Origin: Phreatobacter sp.
Lineage (GTDB): Bacteria > Pseudomonadota > Alphaproteobacteria > Rhizobiales > Phreatobacteraceae
Direction: 5' to 3'
NCBI RefSeq assembly: GCF_027532945.1
Contig: NZ_JAPZTZ010000019.1
Location: forward strand, 1-41,224
DNA: 41,224 nucleotides
Part shown: positions 21,651-32,373 of the stretch, in pieces
How positions within the stretch are numbered: the stretch's first letter is position 1
How the letters are laid out: each line of letters begins with the position of its first letter
Position numbers and translations under genes: made by a program
Notes under the pieces: model-generated
The model's input: the letters and a program-made list of their open reading frames with translations, nothing else
Databases searched by the model: none
What the model was told of the DNA's origin: nothing

Positions 21651-22243
21651 GAGGCGACGAGACCGTGGTGGCGGAGGGCGGAGAGGAGCGGCAGCAGGGG
21701 CATGCCGAGAATGGTGAAATAGTCGCCGTCGATCCGCTCGAACAGCTGGATGCCTTCGCTTTCGAGCTGGTAGCAGCCGACCGAGGAGAGCACGCGGTCG
21801 CCGAGACGGTCGAGATAGGCATCGAGGAAGGCGTCGGAGAAGGCGCGCATCGTCATGGCGGCGGACGAGACCGCAGCGAAGAGCGTCTCGCCATCGCGGA
21901 CCAGCGCAACCCCGGAATGGAGGTAGTGGGTCTGGCCACGCAGCGCGGCGAGATTGGCCCGGGCCTCGGCCCGGTCGGCTGGCTTGGAGAAGCGGCGGAC
22001 ACCCAGGGCCAGGGTCTGATCGGCGCCGATCACCACGGCGCCGGGGCGGGCGCGGCTCACGGCCCGCGCCTTTTCCTCCGCCAGCAGCCGGGCGACGACA
22101 TCGGGCCCGTGGCCCGCGCGGCTCCAGGCCTCGTCGAAGGCGCGCTCGTCGATATCAGCAGGGGCAAGGGCAACGGTGATGCCGGCAGCCTGCAGCATGG
22201 CGGCGCGGGCGGCGGATTTCGACGCGAGTACGAGGCCGGTCAC
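21647..22243 (-). CDS. maf: Maf-family nucleoside triphosphate pyrophosphatase
   Basis: Maf proteins hydrolyse non-canonical or modified nucleoside triphosphates and can slow cell division when overproduced. The 198-residue product has the N-terminal [18 protein letters not shown] motif, the [12 protein letters not shown] block with the catalytic Asp, [20 protein letters not shown], and the C-terminal [15 protein letters not shown]. It overlaps aroE at its end and ppsR at its start by four bases each. This ppsR-maf-aroE-coaE-dnaQ order is a hallmark of the alphaproteobacterial origin region. Confidence 0.93.
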
Positions 22244-23091
22244 GCCCGCGCCTCCTCGGCGATCTTGCGGCGATGATCCTTCAGCAGCGAGATGATGCCG
22301 GCCGCTGTCTCCTCAATGGAGCGGCGCGTCACGTCAATGATAGGCCAGTTGTTGCTGCCGAAAAGCCGGCGGGACTGGGCGATCTCCTCGGCCACGGCGG
22401 CGCGGTCGACATAGCTCGAGCGGTCCTCGGTGGCGTTCAGCGACAGGATGCGGTTCTCGCGGATCTGGACGATGCGTTCGGGGCTGGCATAGAGCCCGAC
22501 CACCAGCGGCTTCTTCAGGGCCCAGATCACGTCGGGCAGAGGAATGCCCGGGACCAGCGGAATGTTCGCCGCCTTGATGCCGCGATTGGCGAGATAGATG
22601 GATGTCGGCGTCTTGGAGGTGCGCGAGACACCGACGAGCAGCACATCGGCCTCTTCCCAGTTTTCGGGCAGCTGGCCGTCGTCATGCATCATCGTGTAGT
22701 TCAGCGCGTCGATGCGCTGGAAATATTCGGCATTGAGCACGTGCTGGGCGCCGACGCGCGGGGTTGAGGCCGCGCCGAGATAGTTCTGGAACAGAGCGAG
22801 GATCGGTTCCAGCACGGAGAGGCATGGGCAGCCGAGCTCCTTGCAGGTGTTTTTCAGCCGCTCGGTCAGGTCCTGGTCGACCAGCGTGTAGAGCACGATG
22901 CCCGGGCTGTTCTCGATCTCGGTGAGGACACGGTCGAGCTGCTTCTGGGAACGGACCAGCGGGTAGACATGCTCAATGGCCGAGACGGAGGAATACTGCA
23001 CCGCCGCGGCCCGGCCGACGGTCATCAGTGTCTCGCCGGTGGCGTCCGACACGAGATGAAGATGGAAGTAGCTCTCGCGACGATGCGGCAT
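22240..23091 (-). CDS. ppsR: Pyruvate, phosphate/water dikinase regulatory protein (DUF299)
   Basis: The 283-residue protein belongs to the bifunctional kinase/pyrophosphorylase family that switches phosphoenolpyruvate synthase or pyruvate phosphate dikinase off and on. Family features are [14 protein letters not shown] near residue 9 and the P-loop-like GVSRTSKT at residues 154-161. [12 protein letters not shown] and [19 protein letters not shown] complete the set. The start at ATG 23091 is where family similarity begins; the frame upstream is not conserved in character. This is the first gene leftward of the candidate origin, facing hemE. The same gene (RP001) faces hemE in Rickettsia and at Caulobacter Cori. 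Confidence 0.92.
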
Positions 23092-23475
23092 GGCGGTCGG
23101 GACATGGGCCTGGGACAGGCCGCGTCGAGCCTGTGGACGAACAGGGACAAGGACACGGAAGCGGGCGAGCCGCAAGAGGTCCATGCCCGCTGGCCTGAAT
23201 CTCATCCCCAGCCATGAAGCGGGGGACAGCCGGGAGGGCTCATCGGGGACAAGCGATGGAGGGGCGATGAGGGGCGCTGGGGCGGTGCCTGAATCCGGTC
23301 GGACTCGCAGAGGCTTGCAGCCGCCCGCCCCCTCCCCGAAGGGAAGCCTTGCCAGAGCCGGCGCGGCGTGGACAACTTGTGGAGAAGCTTGTGTTCACCT
23401 AATCCAGCTTCAAGGAATCAAAGAAGACTCTCTTTCATTCAAGATTGAAGGAGAGAGGGGGACGCGGGAGTCAAC
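23092..23475. other. Candidate chromosomal replication origin (oriC) between ppsR and hemE
   Basis: This is the longest gene-free gap in the window (384 bases) and lies at the divergence point between ppsR and hemE, the pair that flanks Cori in Caulobacter and is conserved in Rickettsia. It contains DnaA-box-like sequences (TGTGGAGAA at 23378-23386, CGTGGACAA at 23367-23375, TGTGGACGA at 23132-23140). Beside the first two is a stretch, 23401-23450, with 32 A/T of 50 bases, against roughly one third in the surroundings. Six GANTC (CcrM) sites occur at 23197, 23291, 23302, 23415, 23426 and 23468. No TTAA-N7-TTAA CtrA box was found. The gap must also carry the hemE and ppsR promoters, so origin function is inferred. 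Confidence 0.6.
23367..23386 (-). promoter_or_regulatory. Pair of DnaA-box-like sequences, 11 bp apart
   Basis: CGTGGACAA (23367) and TGTGGAGAA (23378) are read as the reverse complement of the relaxed DnaA box TTNTNCACA. The second fits that consensus fully and the first misses one base. Their starts are 11 bp apart, about one helical turn, and they sit directly next to the AT-rich stretch. Neither is the perfect TTATCCACA. Confidence 0.45.
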
Positions 23476-24507
23476 GTGCATAAACCTCTCCTCGACGTGC
23501 TCAAGGGCGGCAAGGCCGCCTCCCCGCCCATCTGGATGATGCGCCAGGCTGGGCGCTACCTTCCTGAATATCGCGCCACCCGTGAGCAGGCCGGTTCCTT
23601 CCTGAACCTCTGTTTCAATCCCGAGCTGGCAGCGGAGGTGACCCTCCAGCCGTTGCGGCGCTTCGGCTTTGACGGCGCGATCCTGTTTTCGGACATCCTC
23701 GTCCTCCCCCATGCACTGGGGCAGACCGTGGCTTTCGAGGCAGGCGAGGGCCCGCGGCTCGATCCGCTTGTCGATGCCTCCGGGCTGTCGCGCCTGGCAC
23801 ATGCCCTCGACGAGGCGATCGTTGGCAAGGTCTATGAGGCGGTTGCGCGCATCCATGAGCAGTTGCCAGCCGGCACGACCTTCATCGGCTTTTGCGGCGC
23901 GCCCTGGACGGTTGCGACCTACATGGTGGCGGGCAAGGGCGGCGACGATCAGGTGGCGGCCCGCCTCTTTGCCTACCGCGACCCCGAGGGTTTCTCGCGG
24001 CTCATCGACATCATCGTTGAAGCCTCGATCACCTATCTCCTCGGCCAGATCCGCGCAGGCGTCGATGCGGTGCAGATCTTCGACACCTGGGCCGGTGTTC
24101 TCCCGGCCGACGAGTTCCGCCGCTGGTGCGTCGAGCCTATCGGCCGGATCGTCGCCGGCGTGAAGGCAGCGGCCCCCGGCATTCCCGTCATCGTCTTTCC
24201 GAAGGGCGCCGGGCTGCGGCTCGAGGCCGTCGTGAACGGCACCGGCGCTGACGCCGTCGGCCTCGATTGGACGGCCGATGCCGGTTTTGTCGCCAGCGCG
24301 ATACAGCCCAAGGTCGCCGTTCAGGGCAATGTCGATCCGATCGCGCTGCTCGCCGGCGGAGAGGCCCTCGACAGGGCGGTCGATACGACGCTCGAAGCCT
24401 TCGGTCGCGGCCGGCTGATCTTCAACCTCGGACACGGCATCCTGCCGCCCACGCCCATCGCCCATGTGGAGCGAATGGTGGCGCGGGTGCGCAACTGGAA
24501 GGCATGA
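23476..24507 (+). CDS. hemE: Uroporphyrinogen decarboxylase
   Basis: HemE converts uroporphyrinogen III to coproporphyrinogen III in haem synthesis in the cytoplasm. The 343-residue protein has the invariant substrate-binding [14 protein letters not shown] (residues 20-33), [14 protein letters not shown] with its catalytic Asp, [13 protein letters not shown], and [10 protein letters not shown]. The C-terminal [12 protein letters not shown] closes the active site. The start is GTG 23476, preceded by GGGAG at a spacing of five to six bases. It overlaps hemJ by four bases, so the two haem genes are coupled. It marks the right edge of the candidate origin. Confidence 0.95.
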
Positions 24508-27999: not shown

Positions 28000-28015
28000 T
28001 GTTTCACGTGAAACA
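28000..28015. promoter_or_regulatory. parS: parS site 1 (perfect palindrome)
   Basis: TGTTTCACGTGAAACA matches the bacterial parS consensus at all sixteen positions. It lies in the mnmE-mnmG gap, about 4.6 kb from the candidate origin and 3.5 kb before parB. Chromosomal ParB, with its CTP-dependent clamp, loads at such sites. Confidence 0.93.
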
Positions 28016-29944: not shown

Positions 29945-30588
29945 CCGCGCCCACCAATGCCGATGAGGCGGCGGCCCTGGCGGGCCTGCCTGTTTCACGT
30001 GAAACAGCCGAGCGCCTGACGCTCTATGTCGATCTCCTGCGCCGCTGGAACCCGTCCAAAAACCTCGTGGCGGCCTCCACCCTCGACGCAGTCTGGGGCC
30101 GGCACATTGCCGACAGCCTGCAGATTGTTCGCTGCGCGCCGGACGCCGCCGTCTGGGTCGACCTCGGTTCGGGTGGCGGTCTTCCGGCCCTGGTGGTCGC
30201 GGCCGTGCTGGCCGACCGACCGGGAGCCTTGGTCCATTGCGTCGAGAGCAAGCTCGGCAAGGCCGCCTTCCTGCAGGAGGCGGCGCGCCAGATGCGGGTG
30301 CCGGTGAAGGTCTGGCCGAAGCGGATCGAGGATGTGGTGGGGCGTGAGGTCGCCTCGGCCGATGTCGTCAGCGCCCGCGCGCTTGCGCCACTGGCCGACC
30401 TCCTGTCGCTGGCCAATCCTCTGTTGAAAACTGGCGCTGTCGGGGTCTTTCCCAAGGGCCAAGATGTAGGGGTCGAATTGACCCAGGCCGCTAAATATTG
30501 GAGATTCACTCATCGCTCGGTGCCGAGCGTAACCGACCCACGAGGCACGATCCTTGTGGTCCGGGACGTGGAGACGGCACCGGCCTGA
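29941..30588 (+). CDS. rsmG: 16S rRNA (guanine-527-N7)-methyltransferase RsmG
   Basis: RsmG (GidB) methylates N7 of G527 in 16S rRNA; its loss gives low-level streptomycin resistance in several bacteria. The 215-residue protein has the SAM motif [15 protein letters not shown] near residue 73. [16 protein letters not shown] precedes it and HIADSLQ is typical of the family. The ATG overlaps the mnmG stop (ATGA). A perfect parS site is embedded in codons 17-22 (VSRET region), so the DNA sequence there is doubly constrained. parA starts 10 bases after its stop. Confidence 0.95.
29991..30006. promoter_or_regulatory. parS: parS site 2 (perfect palindrome, inside rsmG)
   Basis: TGTTTCACGTGAAACA again matches parS at every position. 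It is inside the rsmG coding sequence, where it encodes Val-Ser-Arg-Glu-Thr, 1,991 bases from site 1. Two perfect 16-mers this close together, next to parAB, cannot be chance. Confidence 0.93.
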
Positions 30589-30598
30589 CCCTTTTCCG

Positions 30599-31423
30599 AT
30601 GGATGTGGCCATGTCGCTCCTGCCTCCGAAAGCATCGATGACAGGACCCCGCGTCCTCGCGCTCGCGAACCAGAAGGGTGGCGTCGGCAAGACCACCACG
30701 GCGATCAATCTGGGAACCGCCCTCGCCGCGATCGGCGAGCGCGTGCTCATCCTCGACCTTGACCCGCAGGGCAATGCCTCGACGGGCCTGGGCATCGACC
30801 GCCGCTCCCGTCAGAAGTCCACCTACGGCGTGCTGGTCGGTGATTATTCCCTTTCCGAAACGATCCAGGAGACGGCGGTGCCGCGCCTGTGCATCGCGCC
30901 TTCGACCATGGATCTGTCCGGCGTCGAGCTGGAGATCGCTGGCGAGCGGGATCGCGCCCATCGCCTCCGCCGTGCCGTCCAGAGCCTCGGCTCCGATTTC
31001 AGCTATGTGCTGATCGATTGCCCGCCATCGCTCAACCTGCTGACGATCAACGCCATGTCGGCGGCGGATGCCATTCTGGTGCCGCTTCAGTGCGAGTTCT
31101 TCGCGCTTGAAGGCCTGTCTCAGCTCATCAAGACGGTCGAGCAGGTCAAGGCGACGCTGAACCCCACCCTGACGATCCACGGCATCGTGCTCACCATGTA
31201 TGATGCACGTAACAATCTTTCGGCCCAGGTCGTGGACGACGTGCGCCAGTTCATGGGCGACAAGGTCTATCAGACCATCATCCCGCGGAACGTGCGGGTG
31301 TCGGAAGCGCCGGGCTACGGCAAGCCCGTGCTGCTCTACGACCTCAAATGCGTCGGCAGCCAGGCCTATCTGCGCCTGGCATCCGAGATCATCCAGCGCG
31401 AGCGCGTGCTGCGGGCGGCCTGA
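30599..31423 (+). CDS. parA: Chromosome partitioning ATPase ParA
   Basis: ParA is the Walker-type ATPase that moves ParB-parS complexes and so segregates the origin. The 274-residue protein has the deviant Walker A KGGVGKTTT (residues 26-34), LDLDPQGNASTGLG, Walker B YVLIDCPPSLNLLTINA, and IPRNVRVSEAPGYGKPVLLYD. The start is uncertain: ATG 30599, ATG 30611 and ATG 30638 are in frame and none has a strong ribosome-binding site. ATG 30599 is chosen because other alphaproteobacterial ParA proteins have a comparable N-terminal extension. parB follows. Confidence 0.94.
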   Translation: MDVAMSLLPPKASMTGPRVLALANQKGGVGKTTTAINLGTALAAIGERVLILDLDPQGNASTGLGIDRRSRQKSTYGVLVGDYSLSETIQETAVPRLCIAPSTMDLSGVELEIAGERDRAHRLRRAVQSLGSDFSYVLIDCPPSLNLLTINAMSAADAILVPLQCEFFALEGLSQLIKTVEQVKATLNPTLTIHGIVLTMYDARNNLSAQVVDDVRQFMGDKVYQTIIPRNVRVSEAPGYGKPVLLYDLKCVGSQAYLRLASEIIQRERVLRAA

Positions 31424-31497
31424 CCATGGATTCGATTCGCCCGCGTTCTGATTTGCCTGCCGACGTTGTCACGCTGGCGTCCCGAAGGAGACAAGAT

Positions 31498-32373
31498 ATG
31501 GTGGAGGATGCGAACCGGTCGCGGCTGGGCCGCGGGCTCGCGGCGCTGATCGGCGATGTCGGCGAGGAGACCGCCGCCGTCGATCGTGTGCGCACGACGC
31601 GCAAGGTTCCCATTGCCTTCATCCGGGCCAATCCCCGCAACCCGCGCCGTGTCTTCCGGGACGAGGACCTGCAGGAGCTGGCGGATTCGATCCGCGAGCG
31701 CGGCATCATCCAGCCGATCGTGGTGCGGGCCGTGGCCGGCGCTGTTGACGCCTATGAGATTGTCGCCGGCGAGCGGCGCTGGCGCGCGGCGCAGCGGGCC
31801 GAGCTGCACGAGGTGCCGATCCATCTGGTCGAGGTCGGTGACCGCGAGGCTCTCGAGCTCGCCGTCATAGAGAATGTCCAGCGCGCCGACCTCAACCCGC
31901 TGGAAGAGGCGATGGGCTATAACGAGCTCATCGAGCAGTTCGGCTACAGCCAAACCGACCTCGCGAAGATCATCGGCAAGAGCCGCAGCCATGTGGCCAA
32001 TACGCTGCGTCTGATGAAGCTGCCCGACAATGTCCAGGGCATGCTGCGCGACGGCAAGCTCACGGCGGGCCATGCGCGCGCGCTCCTCTCGGTCGAGGAT
32101 CCCGCGAAGCTCGCCTCGCAGATCGTCGACGAAGGCCTCAACGTTCGCCAGGTCGAGGCGCTGACCCAGGAGCAGTCCGAGCGCGCCGGCAAGCCGGTCA
32201 AGCAGCGCGAGCGTCTGGAGAAGGATGCCGATACGCGGGCGCTGGAGAAGACCCTGTCCGATGCGCTCGGCATGACCGTGACGATCGATCACCGAGGGGC
32301 TGGCGGCGAGTTGCGCATCCGCTATCGCTCGCTGGAGCAGCTCGAGGACGTCTGTCGTCGCCTGCAGGGTTGA
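31498..32373 (+). CDS. parB: Chromosome partitioning protein ParB (parS-binding CTPase)
   Basis: ParB binds parS, hydrolyses CTP and spreads as a sliding clamp for chromosome segregation. The 291-residue protein starts MVEDANRSRLGRGLAALIG, the typical ParA-stimulating N-terminus. It has the CTP-binding GERRWRA (residues 91-97) and ENVQR motif (125-129), then the DNA-binding helix-turn-helix GYSQTDLAKIIGKSRSHV (149-166). The C-terminal dimerisation segment ends LEDVCRRLQG. The start at 31498 is chosen because AAGGAG lies seven bases before it; ATG 31426 would add 24 residues with no ribosome-binding site. It converges on holA with a six-base gap. Confidence 0.94.
   Translation: MVEDANRSRLGRGLAALIGDVGEETAAVDRVRTTRKVPIAFIRANPRNPRRVFRDEDLQELADSIRERGIIQPIVVRAVAGAVDAYEIVAGERRWRAAQRAELHEVPIHLVEVGDREALELAVIENVQRADLNPLEEAMGYNELIEQFGYSQTDLAKIIGKSRSHVANTLRLMKLPDNVQGMLRDGKLTAGHARALLSVEDPAKLASQIVDEGLNVRQVEALTQEQSERAGKPVKQRERLEKDADTRALEKTLSDALGMTVTIDHRGAGGELRIRYRSLEQLEDVCRRLQG

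Follow-up and report, generated by a model that had tools for sequence, protein, structure and literature searches.

A very probable chromosomal replication origin between ppsR and hemE in Phreatobacter, and a GANTC-bearing A/T-rich block recurring across the Hyphomicrobiales

Introduction

Where does chromosome replication start in Phreatobacter, a genus of the order Hyphomicrobiales? The question is raised by an intergenic gap of 384 bp (23092-23475) between ppsR (start at 23091, minus strand) and hemE (GTG start at 23476). The gap lies in a stretch of 41,224 nucleotides, hereafter the window, which is contig 18 of a source assembly of 35 contigs and 4.13 Mb. The Caulobacter origin, Cori, is described as the gap between hemE and COG1806 (PMC1914354), and the original prediction, made from the sequence of the window, had placed oriC at the corresponding position. 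We analysed this gap in the window, in twelve genomes of the genus and across families of the order.

Results

Gene order, box-like elements and the A/T-rich block

The gap was predicted to lie where leftward and rightward gene blocks diverge, and gene order and Pfam matches bear this out. Transcription runs leftward through ppsR, maf, aroE, coaE and a dnaQ-like exonuclease gene, and rightward through hemE, UPF0093 (which we take to be hemJ), rho, mnmE, mnmG, rsmG, parA and parB. The head-to-head arrangement of ppsR and hemE is found in all twelve genus genomes, with gap lengths of 368-390 bp. The features of the locus are given in Table 1.

Table 1. Coordinates of features at the ppsR-hemE locus of Phreatobacter (window positions)
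Feature	Coordinates	Strand	Remarks
ppsR (RP001/COG1806/DUF299; kinase-pyrophosphorylase)	22240..23091	-	Left origin flank; Pfam PF03618 Kinase-PPPase, E 4.3e-91
oriC (very probable), intergenic, chromosome replication	23092..23475		Anatomy, footprint, parS, polarity, family-level conservation
DnaA-box-like TCGTCCACA	23132..23140	-	2 mismatches; core CTGTGGA invariant in 12/12
DnaA-box-like TCATCCCCA	23202..23210	+	Its TCCCCA equals the Caulobacter W-box consensus; invariant in 12/12
DnaA-box-like TTGTCCACG	23367..23375	-	2 mismatches; first of two tandem boxes at 11-bp spacing; conservation loose
DnaA-box-like TTCTCCACA	23378..23386	-	1 mismatch; adjoins the A/T-rich block; only TTGTG invariant
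A/T-rich block, probable DNA unwinding element	23400..23449		Holds invariant TAATCC and CAAGGAATC
GANTC (GAATC), probable CcrM methylation target	23415..23419		12/12 genus genomes
GANTC (GACTC in 9 genomes including this one, GATTC in 3)	23426..23430		Motif kept in 12/12
hemE	23476..24507	+	Right origin flank; Pfam PF01208 URO-D, E 5.6e-114
parS TGTTTCACGTGAAACA, perfect	28000..28015		One of the assembly's two sites (at most 1 mismatch)
parS TGTTTCACGTGAAACA, perfect	29991..30006		Other of the assembly's two sites (at most 1 mismatch)
parA	30554..31423	+	AAA_31, E 1.9e-60; ORF bounds, start codon unrefined
parB	31348..32373	+	HTH_ParB, E 8e-36; ParB_N, E 1.2e-33; ORF bounds, start codon unrefined

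DnaA-box-like elements were defined as 9-mers with at most two mismatches to TTATCCACA. The gap contains four of them, where the rate of the window as a whole would give 0.34, and they form the window's densest cluster: no 384-bp stretch away from it has more than two. Over the whole window, the 37 such 9-mers are not a significant excess over the shuffle mean of 28.7 (9 of 100 shuffles reach 37). The three 9-mers of the original prediction, at 23132, 23367 and 23378, are all present, with two, two and one mismatches, respectively; the prediction had overlooked a fourth, a plus-strand 9-mer at 23202. A 9-mer scan of the 384 bp gap found no perfect DnaA box, as had been claimed. The 50-base stretch of 64% A/T reported beside the boxes was also recovered: the 50-mer at 23400-23449 has 66% A/T, the highest among the 41,175 50-mers of the window, of which four reach 64%. 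This block is probably the DNA unwinding element, where the strands would open.

Together, the twelve genus gaps contain seven DnaA boxes with at most one mismatch (0.3 expected), and no such box was found in five of them (L004-L008, that of genome G008 among them). Within 400 kb of G008, the count of 9-mers with at most two mismatches does not make the gap stand out, and 575 of 399,951 50-mers are equally A/T-rich.

Alignment of the twelve genomes revealed 75 invariant columns out of 400, clustered in six runs of at least five: CTGTGGA (23131-23137), GCAAG (23172-23176), TCCCCA (23205-23210), TTGTG (23377-23381), TAATCC (23400-23405) and CAAGGAATC (23411-23419). Six runs were not reached in any of 5000 shuffles of the columns. 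The sequence TCCCCA, reported as the W-box consensus of Caulobacter Cori (PMC4285127), occurs 16 times in the genus gaps against 4.3 expected. Conservation in relatives had been proposed as a check on the box-like sequences; across the twelve genomes such elements are conserved, those at 23367 and 23378 only loosely.

parS sites and chromosome polarity

With at most one mismatch, parS occurs at two places per genome in 11 of the 12 genus genomes, and neither place is more than 6.6 kb from the hemE gap. Genome G001 (480 contigs) has one parS, on a contig other than that of hemE. In G003 (contig C51) and G009 (contig C1), the two parS-like sites, with one mismatch each, flank the hemE gap; elsewhere they form a one-sided pair.

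In the complete relatives G007, G008 and G009, 0.72-0.78 Mb separate dnaA from hemE, enough to distinguish the two candidate origins. We compared them by the strand bias of GGGNAGGG, leaving the terminus free (220 motifs in G008, 80 in G007 and 48 in G009). This single motif, the KOPS of E. coli, was adopted after skew analyses had given no clear switch. Its polarity favoured an origin at hemE over one at dnaA by 10.2 (G008), 3.1 (G007) and 8.9 (G009) log-likelihood units. In the same order, the replichore fractions are 0.47, 0.47 and 0.51 for an origin at hemE, and 0.64, 0.32 and 0.40 for an origin at dnaA. The resolution of the test is tens of kb at best, because all origins from -689 to +791 kb in G007 fall within 2 units of the grid optimum, and because the G008 optimum is displaced by 29 kb from hemE, which scores 2.0 log-likelihood units less (within a contiguous 400 kb, the optimum is at +41 kb, with hemE about 1.5-1.9 units lower).

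Cumulative GC skew, calculated from twenty 20-kb samples per genome of the complete relatives, was too noisy to be useful, and its minima, at +733 (G008), +550 (G007) and +335 kb (G009) from hemE, coincided neither with this gene nor with dnaA. A gene-strand-corrected skew at fourfold sites gave no clear switch. As a side observation, the DnaA AAA+ family matched contig C1 of G045 weakly at six places, all with an identical score (E 1.9e-6); these are perhaps copies of a repeated transposon-borne IstB-like ATPase.

The hemE-ppsR gap across the order

The analysis was extended to one genome per family, with 47 of 49 representatives used (G013 has no HemE match and G020 has it at a contig start). 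ppsR lies head-to-head with hemE in 39 of the 47, with a gap of 372-589 bp (median 448) between first matched residues; the other eight have no adjacent ppsR, in one case (L239) because the contig ends. In the 39 family gaps, DnaA boxes with at most one mismatch number 61 (4.1 expected) and copies of TCCCCA 33 (13.1 expected).

None of the twelve genus gaps, the window's included, contains TTAA-N7-TTAA, as the original prediction had stated for the window. This CtrA-type site is found in 14 of the 39 other family gaps against 0.8 expected (L014, L017, L019, L020, L022, L026, L225, L227, L229, L231, L234, L237, L241 and L243), and in 9 of 56 named gaps. Among the other TTAA-Nx-TTAA spacings from 1 to 15, none occurs in more than 4 of the 39 families. 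Since the site is present in L014, the nearest other family in HemE comparison, its absence from the genus may be a loss.

GANTC sites in the A/T-rich block

Two sites of the sequence GANTC, which the cell-cycle methylase CcrM recognizes, were overlooked in the original prediction; they lie 11 bp apart inside the A/T-rich block in all twelve genus genomes. Counts were made in a zone 30-130 bp before hemE, measured from the first matched residue. In the genus, 25 sites fall in this zone against 7.4 expected, and 14 in the rest of the gap against 12.9. In 66 other gaps, the zone holds 136 against 39.3 expected; outside it the number is also raised (135 against 99.3; 0 of 500 shuffles). With one genome from each of the 39 families, 52 sites lie in the zone against 18.9 expected, none of 1000 shuffles exceeding 34, and the 67 outside it are within 1.6 sd of the 55.7 expected. 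When 16 palindromic 5-mers were compared, GANTC ranked first for enrichment in the family set (z 7.7) and second in the genus set (6.2 against 6.3 for CGNCG). In 28 of 43 named loci (15-21 kb each), ties included, the densest 100-bp GANTC window falls in the gap; in 19 the gap alone holds it. The near-duplicates L090, L092, L096, L100 and L107 were excluded from the 66-gap counts and included in the 43-locus and 56-gap counts.

The flanks of the motif are also biased. Of the 147 zone GANTC sites in the 66 gaps, 57 have the form AGANTCT; shuffling this DNA leads one to expect 3.9, and a share of 0.08 instead of the observed 0.39. One of the two sites of the window is AGACTCT. Usage of the central base roughly follows base composition (A 44, T 41, C 33, G 29).

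A CcrM-like methyltransferase is encoded in the genome, with a RAMA domain in a 410-aa open frame and DPPY and FGSGTTG motifs recognized by eye. It is likely that this enzyme methylates the GANTC pair, which would then be hemimethylated after each initiation. Neither gcrA nor its neighbourhood was found in the source assembly (G000); GcrA is present in 11 of the 12 genus genomes. The 4-kb gcrA neighbourhood of the near relative G006 gave four short matches in G000, none longer than 124 bases and each on a separate contig, and from this scatter an assembly gap is likelier than a loss of gcrA.

Genomes in which hemE lies apart from ppsR

Bradyrhizobium and its kin (hemE loci among L033-L055, ppsR loci L211-L221) do not have hemE beside ppsR. 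In all, 24 named hemE loci have no ppsR match in the examined flank, and 16 of these were scored: none has a DnaA box with at most one mismatch in the 450 bp before hemE. The ppsR loci of 11 such genomes are candidate origins. One of the 11 has a DnaA box with at most one mismatch, and all 11 have at least two GANTC sites where A/T content peaks, some 300-360 bp upstream of ppsR. ppsR faces UPF0093 in both loci checked. Because at least two GANTC sites are kept at 11/11 ppsR loci, and two are found in the zone before hemE at 1/16 hemE loci, the GANTC/A/T block goes with ppsR and not with hemE, which suggests that it is part of the origin locus and not an element of hemE. In the Bradyrhizobium-type loci, the block could act as a promoter for the operon, whose first gene there is UPF0093.

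Discussion

Our analyses make it very probable that the ppsR-hemE gap is the chromosomal oriC of Phreatobacter. Because of its boxes, A/T-rich block, conserved islands, nearby parS sites and polarity, we consider it an ordinary member of the alphaproteobacterial hemE-ppsR class of origins, here without CtrA sites. The case is made by the anatomy of the gap, its conservation footprint, the proximity of parS, replichore polarity and the same arrangement across families; from these we infer DnaA binding, melting, initiation and a single origin. The original identification as oriC is upheld by parS, by polarity in all three complete relatives and by box conservation; the noisy minimum of the sampled GC skew lies away from the gap and from dnaA alike.

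In the mechanism that we propose, DnaA would bind on the left side of the gap, at the box-like elements and TCCCCA, and the tandem boxes at 23367-23386 would load DnaA beside the A/T-rich block. The block (23390-23450) would then melt and let the replicative helicase enter, and ParB, bound to the two parS sites 4.5-6.5 kb away, would separate the new origins.

Could the gap be no more than a promoter region shared by ppsR and hemE, with the origin elsewhere? The A/T-rich/GANTC block would then be a promoter element, possibly under CcrM/GcrA control. It does lie directly upstream of the hemE operon, and GANTC in promoters is a described CcrM/GcrA signal (PMC3973325). Where hemE lies apart from ppsR, the block is still found upstream of a gene, UPF0093, in the two loci checked, and boxes do not mark these ppsR loci as origins, since 10 of the 11 have no DnaA box with at most one mismatch. 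Against this reading, two GANTC sites in the -130 to -30 zone are found in only 1 of the 16 hemE loci without a ppsR match in the flank, whereas all 11 ppsR loci of such genomes have at least two at the A/T maximum; parS and polarity also point to the gap. Scans of 23000-23500 detected no terminator and no sigma-70-like promoter, the latter scan expecting almost none in such DNA. We therefore judge a promoter-only role very unlikely.

An origin at dnaA, as in many bacteria, is harder still to credit. The gene is a single unbroken match in all four genus genomes searched, the GC skew from 20-kb samples is compatible with this location, and in G007 polarity separates hemE from dnaA by its smallest value, 3.1 units only. 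Nevertheless, polarity prefers hemE in 3/3 complete relatives, and the same four genomes have no parS near dnaA. Nor do they have a DnaA box with at most one mismatch in the 3.5 kb around dnaA, although the G008 hemE gap likewise has none.

The Phreatobacter gap, which we thus take as oriC, shares with Caulobacter crescentus Cori its hemE-COG1806 (ppsR) placement (PMC1914354), an A/T-rich block, weak DnaA sites including a TCCCCA W-box (PMC4285127) and GANTC sites (PMC3973325). It differs in that TTAA-N7-TTAA is missing from all twelve genus gaps and that the boxes of the window gap include no TGATCCACA G-box. The expectation that its architecture would depart from Cori holds for the CtrA sites, and does not hold for the W-box match and the GANTC sites, which are common to both. 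The experimental parallel is Hyphomonas neptunium, where the marker-frequency maximum is reported near hemE and parAB, with two parS sites, at a distance of about 7 kb (PMC6650430); CtrA is reported to bind beside that origin (PMC7200025), whereas the Phreatobacter gaps have no full CtrA site.

Rhizobial hemE-ppsR gaps have the same flanking genes, a similar size and GANTC in the zone before hemE: 3-5 sites in Mesorhizobium (L078, L087) and Ochrobactrum (L083, L099), two in Rhizobium L106 and one in L111. Unlike in Phreatobacter, their DnaA boxes often match better and their A/T-rich block is richer in A/T. The oriC of Sinorhizobium meliloti reportedly lies beside hemE, as does ori1 of A. tumefaciens. 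The Bradyrhizobium-type gap between ppsR and UPF0093 resembles that of Phreatobacter in having the GANTC/A/T-rich block beside ppsR (11/11), and differs in that hemE is not at the locus and a DnaA box with at most one mismatch is found in only 1/11.

What keeps GANTC in this block? Its conservation may be due to methylation, or to another property, such as a role of AGANTCT as a single-strand DnaA-binding or melting repeat. We give the latter somewhat less than an even chance. The flanks are constrained as well as the core, AGANTCT being found 57 times against 3.9 expected. Initiation is reported to be normal in Caulobacter without CcrM (PMC3973325), and CcrM depletion in A. tumefaciens to have no significant effect on ori1 number (PMC11514494). 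A methylase target is in turn indicated by a central base that follows composition, by the rank of GANTC among the 16 palindromic 5-mers (first in the family set, second in the genus set) and by the extra chromosomes stated to arise in Caulobacter overproducing CcrM (PMC3973325).

The two properties may be combined. AGATCT is described as a single-strand DnaA site in the E. coli unwinding element (PMC4285127), and AGANTCT resembles it with one base inserted, as if a Dam-type GATC were replaced by a CcrM-type GANTC. It is conceivable, if rather doubtful, that the unwinding element of Hyphomicrobiales is built of AGANTCT-like CcrM-target units, with melting or re-initiation dependent on methylation; this would be a parallel, arrived at independently, to the arrangement in E. 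coli, and CtrA sites would be a patchy second layer, found in some families and absent here. The presence of GANTC in the origins of Caulobacter and its close relatives has already been noted (PMC3973325), and GANTC, oriC, an A/T-rich region and a DnaA box appear together in work on repABC replicons (PMC6090056). As far as we found, the unreported part is therefore the order-wide concentration of AGANTCT in the A/T-rich block.

CtrA sites at origins appear more widespread in our family set than in a 2015 review, which states that they were not seen beyond Caulobacter species, and possibly Rickettsia prowazekii (PMC4468827). They had been predicted in Wolbachia in 2007 (PMC1914354), CtrA binding adjoins the origin in Hyphomonas (PMC7200025), and in Brucella abortus CtrA is reported not to bind the origin (PMC2877005).

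These results locate the very probable origin of a genus for which a literature search with the genus name found no paper on replication origins, as a compact and conserved gap without CtrA sites. Two testable patterns extend across the order: the concentration of GANTC, as AGANTCT, in the A/T-rich block, and the spacing-exact TTAA-N7-TTAA in 14 of 39 families, which contrasts with the 2015 review (PMC4468827).
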